A stretch of 57,865 nucleotides of DNA from Flavobacteriaceae bacterium. GTDB lineage: Bacteria > Bacteroidota > Bacteroidia > Flavobacteriales > Flavobacteriaceae. The stretch covers positions 1 through 57,865 of the forward strand of contig CANHMG010000004.1 in NCBI GenBank assembly GCA_947461795.1, written 5' to 3'. A program made the position numbers and the translations under genes. Below the pieces are notes generated by a model. It did not search any database. It was not told the DNA's origin and saw only the letters and a program-made list of their open reading frames with translations. Positions 3,754 through 53,051 of the stretch are shown here, in pieces (the first letter of the stretch is position 1; each line of letters opens with the position of its first letter).

Positions 3754-5385
3754 TTAAATTTCTCCCAAAAATGGATAGCGATAATCTTCTGGAGTAACAA
3801 AAGTTTCTTTGATGGTTCTTGGAGATGCCCAACGTAACAAATTCAGTGCAGAACCTGCTTTGTCATTAGTACCTGATGCTCTTGCTCCACCAAAAGGTTG
3901 CATTCCAACAACAGCTCCGGTAGGTTTGTCATTGACGTAGAAATTTCCTGCAGCATTTTGAAGCGCTGTTGTTGCTTCTTCAATAGCATAACGATCTTGA
4001 CTGAAAACAGCACCTGTTAATGCATATTCGGAAGTTTGATCTACAAGTTGCAAAGTCTCATTCCATTTGGAATCTTCATAGACATAAATAGTCATTACAG
4101 GACCGAACAATTCTGTTTCCATCGTTGTATATTTTGGGTCTGTAGTGACAATAACTGTAGGTTCTATAAAATAACCTTTCGATTTGTCATAGTTCCCGCC
4201 AATGATGATTTCTGCATTGGTGTCTTTTTTAGCTTGGTCGATGTAACTCGCCAATTTATCAAAAGATCCTTCGTGAATAACGGCAGTAATAAAATTACTA
4301 AAATCTTCTGGCGAACCCATTTTCATGGATTTTACATCAGTAATTAGTTGCGATTTAACGTCATTCCACAAGCTTTTTGGAATATAAGCTCTAGAAGCTG
4401 CGGAACATTTTTGTCCTTGAAATTCAAAGGCTCCACGGGCAATTCCTGTAACTACTTGTTTTACATTGGCACTTGGATGTGCAATAATGAAATCTTTTCC
4501 ACCAGTTTCCCCAACAATTCTTGGATAGGTTTTATAGTGATGAATATTCATTCCAATGGTTTTCCATATGTCTTTGAAAACATGAGTGGAACCTGTAAAG
4601 TGAACTCCTGCAAAATCACGACTCGCAAAAACAGTTTCGCTTATCATTTGAGCATCACCAAAAACTACATTGATAACACCATCAGGAAGACCAGCTTCTT
4701 TAAAGATATCTATGATGATTTTAGCGGAAAAGACTTGGCTATCGCTTGGTTTCCATAGTACCACATTGCCCATCATCGCAGCACTAGCAGGAAGATTCGC
4801 AGCAATGGCTGTAAAATTGAAAGGCGTTATAGCATACACAAAACCTTCTAAAGGACGATATTCCAAACGATTCCATACTGCAGAATCTGATTTGGGTTGG
4901 TCGTTATAGATTTGTGTCATGAATTCAACGTTATAACGTAAAAAGTCAATCAATTCACACGAAGCATCAATTTCTGCTTGAAAAATAGTCTTCGATTGCG
5001 CAATCATTGTCGCTGCATTGATGCGAGCTCGATACGGACCCGCAATTAATTCGGCTGCTTTTAAGAAAATGGCAGCACGTTGTTCCCACGCCATATTGGC
5101 CCATTTAGTTTTAGATTCTAACGCATTAGCAATGGCTTTTTCAACATGTTTTTTCTCTGCTAAATGATAGGTACCAACGATATGTTGATGATCATGAGGA
5201 GCAGACATGGTCCGTGTATTTCCTGTTTTTATTTCTTCGCTACCAATGTATAAAGGCACCTCGATTTTTTCGTTCCACATCTTTTTGTAAGCTGCTAAAA
5301 CAGCCGCTTTTTCAGGCGAATTAGGTGCGTACGATTTTACAGGTTCGTTAACTGCTTTGGGTACGTGAAAGAATCCTTTGAGCAT
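3754..5385 (-). CDS. pruA: L-glutamate gamma-semialdehyde (1-pyrroline-5-carboxylate) dehydrogenase
   Basis: ORF 3754..5469; MLKGFFHVPKAVNEPVKSYAPNSPEK, FTGSTHVFK, VGETGGKDFIIAHPSA, GQKCSAASRAYIP, ELFGPVMTIYVY motifs. Start likely MLKGF at 5385. Confidence 0.93.
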   Translation of the reverse strand: MLKGFFHVPKAVNEPVKSYAPNSPEKAAVLAAYKKMWNEKIEVPLYIGSEEIKTGNTRTMSAPHDHQHIVGTYHLAEKKHVEKAIANALESKTKWANMAWEQRAAIFLKAAELIAGPYRARINAATMIAQSKTIFQAEIDASCELIDFLRYNVEFMTQIYNDQPKSDSAVWNRLEYRPLEGFVYAITPFNFTAIAANLPASAAMMGNVVLWKPSDSQVFSAKIIIDIFKEAGLPDGVINVVFGDAQMISETVFASRDFAGVHFTGSTHVFKDIWKTIGMNIHHYKTYPRIVGETGGKDFIIAHPSANVKQVVTGIARGAFEFQGQKCSAASRAYIPKSLWNDVKSQLITDVKSMKMGSPEDFSNFITAVIHEGSFDKLASYIDQAKKDTNAEIIIGGNYDKSKGYFIEPTVIVTTDPKYTTMETELFGPVMTIYVYEDSKWNETLQLVDQTSEYALTGAVFSQDRYAIEEATTALQNAAGNFYVNDKPTGAVVGMQPFGGARASGTNDKAGSALNLLRWASPRTIKETFVTPEDYRYPFLGEI

Positions 5386-5502
5386 ATTTTTGAATGTTGA
5401 TTGTTGTAGATTGTCGGTTTTAAAATCGAGTACAAAAGTACAAAGGTTTATTGGAAAATTAGGCGACAAAACGGAATAAATTATTACTTGATTTCGTAGT
5501 TT

Positions 5503-37204: not shown

Positions 37205-37284
37205 AGAATTTCTGCTTTAGCATTTTTTTTGACTCTCAAAATAACTAGAGTCAGAGGTTGCAATCAGTTCAAATTTTTCCTCTT
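37205..37284 (-). ncRNA. SAM-II-like riboswitch with an extra L3 hairpin, upstream of metK
   Basis: - strand: aAGAGGaaaaatttgaaCTGattGCaaCCTCTGACTCTagttattttgAGAGTCaaaaaaaatGCtaaagCAGaaattc; P1 AGAGG/CCTCT, L1 ending TTGCAA, pseudoknot CTGattGC/GCtaaagCAG, as in SAM-II. Confidence 0.68.
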
Positions 37285-37296
37285 GATTTTCGGTTG

Positions 37297-39298: not shown

Positions 39299-39426
39299 AT
39301 GCATTGTCTTTTCTCTTTCATCTTTCATCTCTTCCTACTACAACGTTGTCGCATTTATTTTTGAAAAAGTTATTGCAAAAACCATTTCTATTCCCTTACT
39401 TTGCCCTGTTCTTAATTTTATTGATC

Positions 39427-39528
39427 GTTATCACGAAAGCCAGAGGGATTAGACCCGTCGAAAGCTTAGCAACCCTTTACCATAAAGAAGGTGCTACATT
39501 CTACCAAGCGCAAGTTTGGACAGATAAC
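39427..39528 (+). ncRNA. SAM-I (S-box) riboswitch aptamer upstream of metH
   Basis: GTTATC...agccagagggattagacccgtcgaaagcttaGCAACCctttaccataaagaaGGTGCTAcattctacc...GATAAC; matches S-box core (GAGGGA..CCC..GAA.GC..GCAACC..GGTGCTA) with P1 GTTATC/GATAAC. Confidence 0.88.
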
Positions 39529-39570
39529 CACGAGAATTTCTCTCACTTTTTACGATAACAATTTTATTTT

Positions 39571-48770: not shown

Positions 48771-48885
48771 ATATTTTGATTTGAAACAAAAGTAAAGAAT
48801 ACTCAAGGAAATTTTCAAAAAAAAATAATCTTTTGTGAAAGCGTAAACATTTTTTTTTACTTTAGCAATCCAATTATTGTTACCC

Positions 48886-48966
48886 ATGTTGAATAACCGT
48901 TTCTATTTTAGCAATTCACTTTATTTCTTCTGCAAAGAAGCAAGGGATTGTGGTATGGTTATTTGA
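48886..48966 (+). CDS. putative Phe/Tyr-rich attenuation leader peptide (26 aa)
   Basis: ATG TTG AAT AAC CGT TTC TAT TTT AGC AAT TCA CTT TAT TTC TTC TGC AAA GAA GCA AGG GAT TGT GGT ATG GTT ATT TGA = MLNNRFYFSNSLYFFCKEARDCGMVI*; below the 60-aa cutoff of the supplied ORF track. Confidence 0.8.
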   Translation: MLNNRFYFSNSLYFFCKEARDCGMVI

Positions 48967-48991
48967 AAAATTATTAATTCAAAAAATATAC

Positions 48992-49021
48992 AAATCCCGA
49001 TGCGAATCGGGATTTTTTTTT
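48992..49021 (+). terminator. intrinsic terminator (attenuator) 5' of pheA
   Basis: aaatcccgat-gcga-atcgggattttttttt; 10-bp stem plus T-run, 12 nt before the pheA ATG. Confidence 0.88.
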
Positions 49022-49032
49022 AGCATTTTTAT

Positions 49033-49860
49033 ATGAAGCATAGTATTGCCATACAAGGAATCAAAGGCTCTTTTCACCATCAAGTCGTGTTAGAGTATTT
49101 CCCAGAAGAAAACGACATTGAGGAATGTTTGTCTTTCGAGGAAGTGGTCGATAGTTTATTATCGGGGCAATCTTCACAAGCTGTTATGGCTTTAGAAAAC
49201 TCCATCGCGGGTTCAATTATTCCCAATTATGCCTTAATCGATAAGAATAGTTTGCACATTGTCGGGGAACATTACTTAGATATTCATCAAAACCTAATGG
49301 TATTGAATGGACAGACTATTGAAGACATAAAAGAAATTCATTCACATCCAATGGCTTTATTACAATGCATGGATTTTCTTAAAAAACATCCTTACATTAA
49401 ATTGGTAGAAGACAAAGATACCGCGGAAACAGCGCGAAGAATTCACCAACATCAACTCAAAGGAATCGCAGCAATTGCTAGTAAAGCCGCTTCGCAAATG
49501 TATAATTTGAATATCATTGCGCCTGAAATACAAACAATCAACAACAACATGACACGTTTTGTAATTGTAACAAAACATAAATCCGATGCTGTAAAAGAAA
49601 ATATAAATAAAGCATCATTAAAGTTTGAATTGGATCATAAACGTGGTAGCCTTGCCGCTGTTCTCAATGTGATGAGCGATTGCAAATTGAATCTCACTAA
49701 AATCCAATCTTTGCCAAAAATTGAAACTCCTTGGAAATATTCTTTTTTTGTAGATGTGACTTTCGAAAATTACGACGATTTTGAAAAAGCAAAGACAATC
49801 ATTAATATCATGGCAGAACATTTTAAAATTTTGGGTGAATATCAAAACAAACAACCATGA
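49033..49860 (+). CDS. pheA: prephenate dehydratase
   Basis: IAIQGIKGSFHHQVVLEYF; ALENSIAGSIIPNYALID; HSHPMALLQCMDFL; NNNMTRFVIV; ACT domain SLAAVLNVMSDCKLNLTKIQSLP. Confidence 0.92.
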   Translation: MKHSIAIQGIKGSFHHQVVLEYFPEENDIEECLSFEEVVDSLLSGQSSQAVMALENSIAGSIIPNYALIDKNSLHIVGEHYLDIHQNLMVLNGQTIEDIKEIHSHPMALLQCMDFLKKHPYIKLVEDKDTAETARRIHQHQLKGIAAIASKAASQMYNLNIIAPEIQTINNNMTRFVIVTKHKSDAVKENINKASLKFELDHKRGSLAAVLNVMSDCKLNLTKIQSLPKIETPWKYSFFVDVTFENYDDFEKAKTIINIMAEHFKILGEYQNKQP

Positions 49861-51023
49861 TCAAAACAGCTAAAAGATTAGAAACGATAGAAGAGTACTA
49901 TTTCTCAACCAAATTGAGAGAGGTTCGGCAGTTGCAATCCGAAGGAAAACTAATTATCAATATGGGAATTGGAAGCCCTGATTTAGCGCCTCATTCCTCT
50001 GTTATTAAAGCCATTCAAGCTGCCGTAATAGAAGAAAACGCCCATCAATATCAAAGCTATCAAGGTTTGCCTGAACTTCGAAATGGAATGGCTCATTTTT
50101 ACCAAAAACATTTTCAAGTGGCATTGAATCCGACTACTGAAATATTGCCGCTTATGGGTTCTAAAGAAGGAATCATGCATATTTCGTTGGCTTTTTTGAA
50201 TGAAGGCGATCAAGTATTAATTCCAAATCCAGGCTATCCGACTTATAGTTCAGTTACCAAATTAGTCGGAGCGAAACCAGTTTTTTATGATCTGCAAGAA
50301 GATTCAAATTGGGAACCCGATTTCGAGGCTTTAGAAAAACTAGATTTGTCAAAAGTAAAATTGATGTGGGTTTCGTACCCGCACATGCCAACAGGAGCAA
50401 CGGGTAGTTTGACGTTATTTAAAAAGTTAATCACTTTTGCTAGAAAGCACCAGATTCTTTTGATTAATGACAATCCGTATAGTTTTGTTTTGAATGACAA
50501 TCCAATTTCAATTTTGCAGATTGAAGGCGCGAAAGAGATAGCAATAGAACTTAATTCACTATCCAAGACTTTCAATATGGCGGGTTGGCGAATTGGTTGG
50601 GTTTCTGGGAAAGTCGAATTCATCGAAGCGATTCTAAAAGTAAAAAGCAATATGGATAGCGGTATGTTTTACGGGATTCAAAAAGGAGCCATTGCCGCTT
50701 TACAACTTGATAATTCATGGTTTGTGGAACTTAATAAAGTTTACGCTTCAAGACGCGCATTGATTTTTGAATTGGCGGAGCAACTACATTGCACTTTCGA
50801 CAGAAAATCAGTGGGCTTATTTGTTTGGGCGAAATTGCCCGATGGCGTTGAATCATCAGAGCAATTTATCGATGATATATTATACAACAAACACATTTTT
50901 ATTACGCCTGGAACGATTTTCGGCAGCCAAGGAGAAGGATATGTTCGATTTTCATTATGCGTTACAGCAGAAAAAATTAAAGAGGCGATTGAGAGATTTC
51001 ATTCGACAAAAGATAACCGATAA
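49857..51023 (+). CDS. pyridoxal phosphate-dependent class I/II aminotransferase
   Basis: INMGIGSPDLAPHSSVIKA; PLMGSKEGIMHISLAFLNEGDQVLIPNPGYPTYSS; NSLSKTFNMAGWRIGWVSG. Confidence 0.93.
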   Translation: MIKTAKRLETIEEYYFSTKLREVRQLQSEGKLIINMGIGSPDLAPHSSVIKAIQAAVIEENAHQYQSYQGLPELRNGMAHFYQKHFQVALNPTTEILPLMGSKEGIMHISLAFLNEGDQVLIPNPGYPTYSSVTKLVGAKPVFYDLQEDSNWEPDFEALEKLDLSKVKLMWVSYPHMPTGATGSLTLFKKLITFARKHQILLINDNPYSFVLNDNPISILQIEGAKEIAIELNSLSKTFNMAGWRIGWVSGKVEFIEAILKVKSNMDSGMFYGIQKGAIAALQLDNSWFVELNKVYASRRALIFELAEQLHCTFDRKSVGLFVWAKLPDGVESSEQFIDDILYNKHIFITPGTIFGSQGEGYVRFSLCVTAEKIKEAIERFHSTKDNR

Positions 51024-51032
51024 CAAATAGCT

Positions 51033-51884
51033 ATGAAAGTTTACATCATCGGAGTAGGATTAATAGGAGGTTCCATGGCGTTGGATATTCAATCTCATTT
51101 TACCCATGCGAAAGTGTTTGGCATGGATGCGAACGAACGCCATTTGGAAGAAGCGCTTCAATTGGGAATAATACAACAGCAAGCCACTTTCGGAGATTTA
51201 CACGAAGCAGATGTTGTTATTCTGTCCGTTCCTGTGGATATTTGTCTCACAGTTTTGCCTCAAATATTGGATAGTATTGGTGAACAAACGATTGTATTTG
51301 ATGTTGGTTCTACTAAACTTCCAATTTGTGAATCAATAGCAAATCACCCGAAAAGAAACCATTTTATGGCAACACATCCTATTGCTGGAACGGAGTTTTC
51401 TGGACCTGCAGCGGCAGTTAGGAATCTCTTTCAGGGAAAGACCAATATCATTTGTGAAGTAGAGAAAACGTCTTTTAAATTGCAAGAAAAAGCATTAGAG
51501 GTGTTTCAGAAATTGGGCATGAGAATTCGGTATATGAATCCAAAATCGCATGACAAACACATTGCGTATGTTTCGCATTTGTCGCATATAAGTTCCTTTA
51601 TGCTCGGAAAAACCGTCATCGAAAAAGAAAAAGACGAGCGTGATATTTTTGATATGGCGGGTAGTGGATTTGAGAGCACCGTGCGATTGGCGAAGAGTTC
51701 TCCTGCAATGTGGACGCCCATTTTTCAACAAAACAAAAAACAAGTGGTGAAAAGTTTGGAAGAATACATCGCCAATTTGACGCAATTTAAAGAATTACTA
51801 GAACAAGACAATTACGAAGCAGTTTTTGAAGAAATGCAAAGTGTAAATAAGATTCGTGAGATATTAACAGGAATGAAGAAATAA
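51033..51884 (+). CDS. tyrA: prephenate dehydrogenase
   Basis: MKVYIIGVGLIGGSMALDI; FDVGSTKLPICESI; HFMATHPIAGTEFSGPAAA; HDKHIAYVSHLSHISSFMLG. Confidence 0.92.
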   Translation: MKVYIIGVGLIGGSMALDIQSHFTHAKVFGMDANERHLEEALQLGIIQQQATFGDLHEADVVILSVPVDICLTVLPQILDSIGEQTIVFDVGSTKLPICESIANHPKRNHFMATHPIAGTEFSGPAAAVRNLFQGKTNIICEVEKTSFKLQEKALEVFQKLGMRIRYMNPKSHDKHIAYVSHLSHISSFMLGKTVIEKEKDERDIFDMAGSGFESTVRLAKSSPAMWTPIFQQNKKQVVKSLEEYIANLTQFKELLEQDNYEAVFEEMQSVNKIREILTGMKK

Positions 51885-51889
51885 GCAAC

Positions 51890-51957
51890 AGAGTTCCTGA
51901 GTCTCTGAGTTTCTACGAAATACTCAGAAACTTCTTTGCTCAGGAACTCAGAAACTC
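51890..51957. repeat. long imperfect inverted repeat between tyrA and the DAHP synthase/chorismate mutase gene
   Basis: GAGTTCCTGAG (51891-51901) pairs with CTCAGGAACTC (51939-51949), inner AGTTTCT / AGAAACT. Confidence 0.75.
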
Positions 51958-51968
51958 TAAAAAAAACT

Positions 51969-53051
51969 ATGGGAAATAATGCAAAAATGAGAACGTGGCT
52001 GGATGATTTTAAATTGACGCATCCATTAGTAATAGCCGGTCCGTGTAGCGCGGAAACCGAAGAGCAAGTGTTGAAAATCGCACACGAATTGAAAGATTCC
52101 GATGTAAGTATTTACCGCGCTGGGATTTGGAAACCACGTACGCGACCAGGTGGTTTTGAAGGTGTTGGTGCCATTGGATTAAAATGGTTGCAAAAAGCCA
52201 AAGCCGAAACAGGATTATTGATGGCGACAGAAGTGGCCAATGCGGCGCATGTAAAACTGGCATTGGAACACGATATTGATGTATTGTGGATTGGAGCTCG
52301 AACAACTGTAAACCCTTTTGCGGTGCAGGAAATAGCCGATGCTTTGCAAAATACAGATAAAATTGTTTTGGTTAAAAACCCAGTAAATCCCGATTTAGCC
52401 TTATGGATTGGTGGTGTTGAAAGATTACATAATGCAGGAATTAAAAAATTAGGCGTGATTCATAGAGGATTTTCGACGTATGAAAAAACAAAATACCGCA
52501 ATATTCCAGAATGGCAATTGCCTATTGAGCTCCAAAGTAGATTTCCTGATTTACCACTAATTTGCGATCCATCTCATATTACAGGAAAAAGAGACATGAT
52601 ACAGGAAGTTTCCCAACAAGCACTCGATTTGAATTACGATGGCTTGATTATCGAAACACATTGTGATCCCGACAACGCATGGAGTGATGCTGCTCAACAA
52701 GTGACACCAACGGTTTTAAAACAGATTTTCAAGGATTTACGGATACGAAAAACAAGTACAGATGAAGATGATTTCAATACGAAAATGATCAAACTTCGCG
52801 CAGATATAGACATTGCAGACAGTAAATTATTGGAAATATTAGGCAAAAGAATGAAAGTGGCGGATCAAATCGGAGCGTTGAAAAAAGAGAAAAACATAGC
52901 GGTACTTCAAAACAAACGTTGGAATGAAATTCTTGAGAAAATGATAGTAGAGGGTGAAGAACGAGGCTTGAGTGAAGAATTTATTTTAAGATTGTTTAAG
53001 GCGATTCACCAGGAAAGCATTAGTCATCAGGAGAAAGTGATAAATAGTTAA
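51969..53051 (+). CDS. bifunctional DAHP synthase / chorismate mutase (type II)
   Basis: ORF 51936..53051; GPCSAETEEQVLKIAHELKDSDVSIYRAGIWKPRTRPGGFEGVGAIGLKWLQ; C-terminal LRADIDIADSKLLEILGKRMKVADQIGALKKEKNIAVLQNKRWNEIL. Confidence 0.94.
   Translation: MGNNAKMRTWLDDFKLTHPLVIAGPCSAETEEQVLKIAHELKDSDVSIYRAGIWKPRTRPGGFEGVGAIGLKWLQKAKAETGLLMATEVANAAHVKLALEHDIDVLWIGARTTVNPFAVQEIADALQNTDKIVLVKNPVNPDLALWIGGVERLHNAGIKKLGVIHRGFSTYEKTKYRNIPEWQLPIELQSRFPDLPLICDPSHITGKRDMIQEVSQQALDLNYDGLIIETHCDPDNAWSDAAQQVTPTVLKQIFKDLRIRKTSTDEDDFNTKMIKLRADIDIADSKLLEILGKRMKVADQIGALKKEKNIAVLQNKRWNEILEKMIVEGEERGLSEEFILRLFKAIHQESISHQEKVINS

Follow-up and report, generated by a model that had tools for sequence, protein, structure and literature searches.

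The window analysed here, a stretch of 57,865 nucleotides from a member of the Flavobacteriaceae, carries a four-gene Flavobacterium operon for Phe and Tyr synthesis, in which the enzyme identities were confirmed with Pfam. An intrinsic terminator stands directly before its first gene, pheA, and a short ORF with clustered aromatic codons stands before the terminator, raising the question of how these elements act on transcription of the operon. A preliminary description had placed the ORF, the terminator and the pheA ATG at 49033, and each of these coordinates is exact to the base. The features of the locus are as follows.

48832..48865, + strand, likely promoter of the Bacteroidota type, with TTTG at 48832-48835 and a -7 box TACTTTAG at 48858-48865, 28 nt upstream of the leader ATG (motif match)
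48886..48966, + strand, leader peptide ORF of 26 codons, ATG at 48886 and TGA ending at 48966, peptide MLNNRFYFSNSLYFFCKEARDCGMVI and then the stop (ORF listing, genus alignment, frame conservation)
48889..48900, + strand, strand 1a, codons 2-5, pairing with 48955-48966 (fold, covariation)
48901..48909, + strand, Phe-Tyr-Phe (F6-Y7-F8), first predicted control codons (ORF reading, codon tally)
48911..48917, + strand, strand 1b, GCAATTC, pairing with GGATTGT at 48945-48951 (fold, covariation)
48922..48930, + strand, Tyr-Phe-Phe (Y13-F14-F15), second predicted control codons (codon tally, invariance of F15)
48944..48967, + strand, strand 2, GGGATTGTGGTATGGTTATTTGAA, with either strand 1 or strand 3 as partner (folds, covariation)
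48978..48998, + strand, strand 3, TTCAAA...TATAC.AATCCC, the antiterminator partner, its 3' end doubling as the terminator 5' arm (folds, covariation)
48992..49021, + strand, intrinsic terminator, a 3:4 stem (48992-49001/49006-49015) of 10 pairs with a 4-nt loop and a T-run up to 49021 (pattern search, covariation)
49033..49860, + strand, pheA, prephenate dehydratase (Pfam PF00800)
49857..51023, + strand, class I/II aminotransferase (Pfam PF00155)
51033..51884, + strand, tyrA, prephenate dehydrogenase (Pfam PF02153 and PF20463)
51972..53051, + strand, DAHP synthase-chorismate mutase fusion, the listed ORF starting at 51936 (Pfam PF00793 and PF01817)

This is the layout of an attenuator, in that a short ORF with a cluster of end-product codons, predicted to be translated, precedes the operon, an intrinsic terminator lies between this ORF and the first gene, an antiterminator (2:3) is exclusive with the terminator (3:4), and a 1:2 helix frees the terminator in the untranslated state, as judged by folding and covariation. 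We consider it highly probable (about 0.92) that the pheA leader is a ribosome-mediated transcription attenuator set by how much charged tRNA-Phe and tRNA-Tyr is available. The preliminary description had offered the same reading, and it is strongly supported by the conserved ORF and the three covarying helices described below. Without a ribosome on the leader, strands 1 and 2 would pair, strand 3 would be left free, and the 3:4 terminator would form and halt transcription ahead of pheA. If Phe or Tyr runs low, a ribosome would stall at the aromatic codons and block pairing by strand 1, its leading edge just reaching strand 2; the freed strand 2 would then pair with the emerging strand 3, consuming the terminator 5' arm, and RNA polymerase would continue. 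When both amino acids are ample, the ribosome would reach the stop codon in or adjoining strand 2 and mask strand 2, such that 3:4 forms again. Stalling, termination, antitermination, and the sensing of both Phe and Tyr are what we infer from the sequences, and the likely transcription start was likewise placed from the promoter motif. With 0-1 mismatch, a best match to TAnnTTTG is found in 162 of 163 Flavobacterium leaders and in about 35% of the shuffled sequences, and it mostly lies 25-40 nt upstream of the ATG.

The pheA loci for comparison were taken from named genomes, mostly Flavobacterium, together with further genomes of the same genus, and the 171 Flavobacterium records comprise 170 loci plus the window, which one locus (L081) duplicates. 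The leader layout is present in 166 of the 171, with 164 identified by automatic search and two others (L007 and L085) in which the element is present and clipped at contig ends. It is absent from the remaining five genomes (L152-L156), in which PheA is divergent (41-46% identity), possibly through gene replacement. The aromatic content of the leader peptide is by itself only mildly unusual in such a T-rich stretch, with six aromatic residues in 18 leader codons against a mean of 3.1 in base shuffles (P = 0.04). The combination of an aromatic ORF, a terminator and a complementary strand 2 is found at this one place on the two strands of the window, and 20 dinucleotide shuffles do not yield it at all; the background rate comes solely from the window and these shuffles. 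Chance is removed as an explanation by the alignment over their full length, end to end, of 142 distinct Flavobacterium leaders, which were selected in part on ORF content.

Within this alignment residue 15 is Phe in all 142 leaders (TTC in 119, TTT in 23), Phe (133 leaders) far outnumbers Tyr (seven) at residue 14, and Tyr (135) far outnumbers Phe (seven) at residue 13; substitutions at codons 13-15 are exclusively synonymous or exchanges of Phe and Tyr. The leader frame is open in all 92 leaders tested, with stops in the other two frames in 77 and 81. A conserved frame with conserved aromatic codons, changes restricted to synonymous or Phe/Tyr substitutions, and covarying stems had all been predicted beforehand, and all held in the comparison. 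The same data bear on the alternative that the leader senses Phe alone and that the Tyr codons are tolerated neighbours. Although Phe codons outnumber Tyr codons (511 versus 313 across the 92 leaders), F15 is invariant and the enterobacterial leader is likewise Phe-only, we regard this as unlikely, given that the last cluster holds Tyr in 92 of 92 leaders, that Tyr so predominates at residue 13, and that tyrA belongs to the operon. A single leader appears to serve both products of one shared pathway, as in the favoured attenuator responding to both amino acids.

The three mutually exclusive helices, 1:2, 2:3 and 3:4, covary. Strand 1 consists of early codons of the leader itself, codons 2-5 and 9-11 (AATAACC and GCAATTC), and strand 2 (GGGATTG...GGTTATTTGA) has as its alternative partner the terminator 5' arm together with the stretch preceding that arm. 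Folded at full length, the leader adopts helix 1:2 together with the terminator (-33.9 kcal/mol, z = -3.8), and RNA truncated before strand 4 folds into the antiterminator. In the 142-sequence alignment the covariation score of all three structures lies above each of 500 shuffles, and 77.5, 95.7 and 91.3% of cells are paired for the three structures, far above slid versions. One position covaries across three strands, being G/C/G in 71 leaders, A/T/A in 52, G/T/A (with a G-U pair) in 17 and A/T/G in one, with a gap in one. Because shuffles leave descent uncontrolled, partners were also swapped between species, and native partners pair more stably than swapped ones within the genus for 1:2 (-12.5 versus -10.0 kcal/mol), 2:3 (-16.7 versus -14.9 kcal/mol) and 3:4 (-8.9 versus -8.2 kcal/mol; 0/2000 permutations for each). 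The antiterminator proposed at the outset, GGGATT with AATCCC of the terminator 5' arm, is borne out by the covariation of 2:3. Strand 1 had been drawn differently, as a CTTC/GAAG pairing, and proves to be 48889-48900 plus 48911-48917, pairing with 48944-48967; CTTC/GAAG was rejected as a competing 1:2 stem, since it lies ahead of GGGATT, shares no bases with it, and is not maintained in several clades.

The spacing of these strands fits the position of a stalled ribosome. With the last aromatic codon in the A site, the leading edge of a ribosome would lie at about the start of strand 2. Strand 2 is clear in 83 leaders, and in 80 of them it begins 10-17 nt past the first base of the final aromatic codon, which would agree with such a leading edge. 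Folding with the ribosome footprint masked gives, with no ribosome, 1:2 in 90 of 92 leaders and 3:4 in 91 of 92; with a stalled ribosome and RNA ending before strand 4, 2:3 forms in 92/92, and with a ribosome at the stop codon, 3:4 forms in 92/92. As measured from strand 2, the stop codon falls between -11 and +30 nt, that is, from just before to just after it, and a ribosome at the stop codon would therefore mask strand 2 in most leaders. In full-length equilibrium folding the terminator is favoured over the antiterminator in 84 of 92 leaders, and the switch would therefore require transcription-coupled timing. Antitermination won through timing is also thought to hold for the classic attenuators.

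Outside the genus we examined pheA upstream regions from 40 genomes of the Flavobacteriaceae, representing 39 genera, and 20 more from order, class and phylum lists, all hand-picked from match lists. The layout is present in 56 of these 60 and is missing in four (L195 and L200-L202, the last three with PheA at about 32% identity). Strand 2 and the terminator arm change together beyond the genus, as in GGGACT/AGTCCC, CGAGAC/GTCTCG, GAGGCT/AGCCTC, GCGGGA/TCCCGC and GAGCGGTC/GACCGCTC. A fixed 22-nt region past the last aromatic codon has a better matching score with its own terminator arm (17.0) than with those of others (13.6) (0/5000 permutations), and native partners again exceed swapped ones for 1:2 (-16.0 versus -10.8 kcal/mol) and 2:3 (-14.2 versus -10.4 kcal/mol; 0/3000 permutations for each). 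Automatic detection of strand 2 was wrong in seven family leaders, picking an A/T-rich segment; read by eye, CGAGGC pairs with GTCTCG in six of them (L187, L212, L213, L216, L217 and L222), and CGGGAC with GTCCCG in the seventh (L171). The pairing letters have been replaced while the same predicted switch is kept, in most of the Bacteroidota pheA loci sampled. Comparison of these sequences establishes the predicted ORF, its aromatic codons, and the three exclusive helices with their covariation. One locus (L207), read by eye, seemingly has tandem attenuators, with a leader MAYRSAYYFYFFCFFSSCRG and a GTCCCG terminator followed by MNCMGYTYYYFFSLMDHRRLWVV with GGACCATC/GATGGTCC.

That the structured RNA might instead be a ligand-binding riboswitch or a T-box before a terminator, with the ORF accidental, is very improbable. 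The leader is indeed structured, has a terminator and can fold in a second way, but at the pheA leader no Rfam family, T-boxes and known riboswitches included, reaches its gathering score, a conserved aptamer core is absent, and the reading frame and aromatic codons are conserved though the RNA letters change. Rfam matches to BSnc120, PyrR, Trp_leader and Phe_leader at this position were rejected, as all are far under the cut-off. A constitutive terminator accompanied by a small, functional, unregulated membrane peptide is comparably implausible, for although the peptide is strongly hydrophobic and conserved in the genus, its sequence outside the aromatic codons and its stop position vary widely, searches of Pfam and NCBIfam with the leader peptides gave no match, strands 1:2 and 2:3 covary, and the upstream neighbour gene is divergent, so that the terminator ends no + strand gene.

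Two other kinds of loci bear on the attenuator reading. In all ten genomes in which hisG was found (L231-L240), a leader peptide rich in consecutive His codons, followed by a terminator, stands upstream of the gene, for example MLSNQLHHHHFHYCSQAMC with its stop and then the terminator; the layout is that of the pheA leader, with His in place of Phe/Tyr and HHHHFHY codons before the terminator. The predicted control codons follow the pathway of the downstream genes. In one Flavobacterium genome (G001), pheA and tyrA have been lost and the DAHP synthase/chorismate mutase is retained. In the relic of the leader that remains in this single genome (L241, about 4480-4590), the aromatic codons are eroded, strand 2 is broken and the stop is gone, decay as would be expected once selection ends.

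Leader-peptide attenuation is a textbook mechanism (see the scheme in PMC1183508), and the enterobacterial pheA leader (Rfam RF01859, Phe_leader) is alike in regulating pheA with end-product control codons, exclusive stems and a terminator before the gene. The two are unrelated in sequence, however: the match to RF01859 reaches 23.7 bits, no better than chance matches, where the cut-off is 55. In contrast to the enterobacterial leader, the Bacteroidota peptide mixes Phe and Tyr, and sometimes Trp, before an operon that makes both Phe and Tyr; its strand 1 is formed by the leader's first codons; and a Shine-Dalgarno-like site is missing in 52 of 56 leaders.

The preliminary description was aware of no published leader of this sort in the genus, but a structured pheA 5' element in Flavobacteriaceae was reported in 2021 (PMC9723704). 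The element precedes pheA in F. psychrophilum, is conserved in other Flavobacteriaceae genera and has no Rfam match; an element at hisG is named too, and strong clues to leader-peptide attenuation are given for amino-acid operons in general. It is almost certainly the same element as described here, although the main text there specifies neither a peptide nor helices, an amino acid, or an occurrence past the family. In B. thetaiotaomicron a putative attenuator was tabulated in 2005 for pheA > hisHb > aroA-aroQ > tyrA from Merino's predictions (PMC1173090, Table 7). This entry has the same operon content, the same phylum and a predicted terminator/antiterminator, but is a table row with neither leader peptide nor comparative test; leader-like short ORFs in B. 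thetaiotaomicron 5' UTRs were noted in 2020 (PMC7366714). In the literature searched, hints of a described Bacteroidota Phe/Tyr leader came only from PMC1173090 and PMC9723704; Vitreschak 2004 and Lopatovskaya 2010 did not turn up in it and may hold Bacteroidetes candidates. The kind of element is thus known and this one has been glimpsed before, and its peptide, three helices, covariation and phylum range were not found in the literature examined, PMC9723704 to the extent accessible. A regulatory element hitherto only listed in Bacteroidota, a phylum in which leader-peptide attenuation has hardly been studied, now has a precise, testable structure.

Translation in Bacteroidota is mostly initiated without Shine-Dalgarno sites, and leader-peptide attenuation demands a ribosome close behind RNA polymerase. 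The pheA and hisG leaders would therefore be ready-made reporters of transcription-translation coupling in this phylum. We lean slightly towards the fuller proposal of an attenuator that responds to both Phe and Tyr and was already present in the ancestor of much of the Bacteroidota, in which the first codons fold onto strand 2 and initiation does not use a Shine-Dalgarno site, and which hence needs close coupling of transcription and translation.

Other RNA elements were seen elsewhere in the window. Two different SAM riboswitch classes fall within some 2.3 kb on opposite strands, RF00162 (SAM) at 39425-39530 on the + strand and RF01726 (SAM-II) at 37207-37288 on the - strand. Flavo-1 RNA (RF01705), an unexplained family, is present in seven copies in 58 kb, on both strands, at 5501, 17168, 24999, 28739, 35719, 39576 and 46304.
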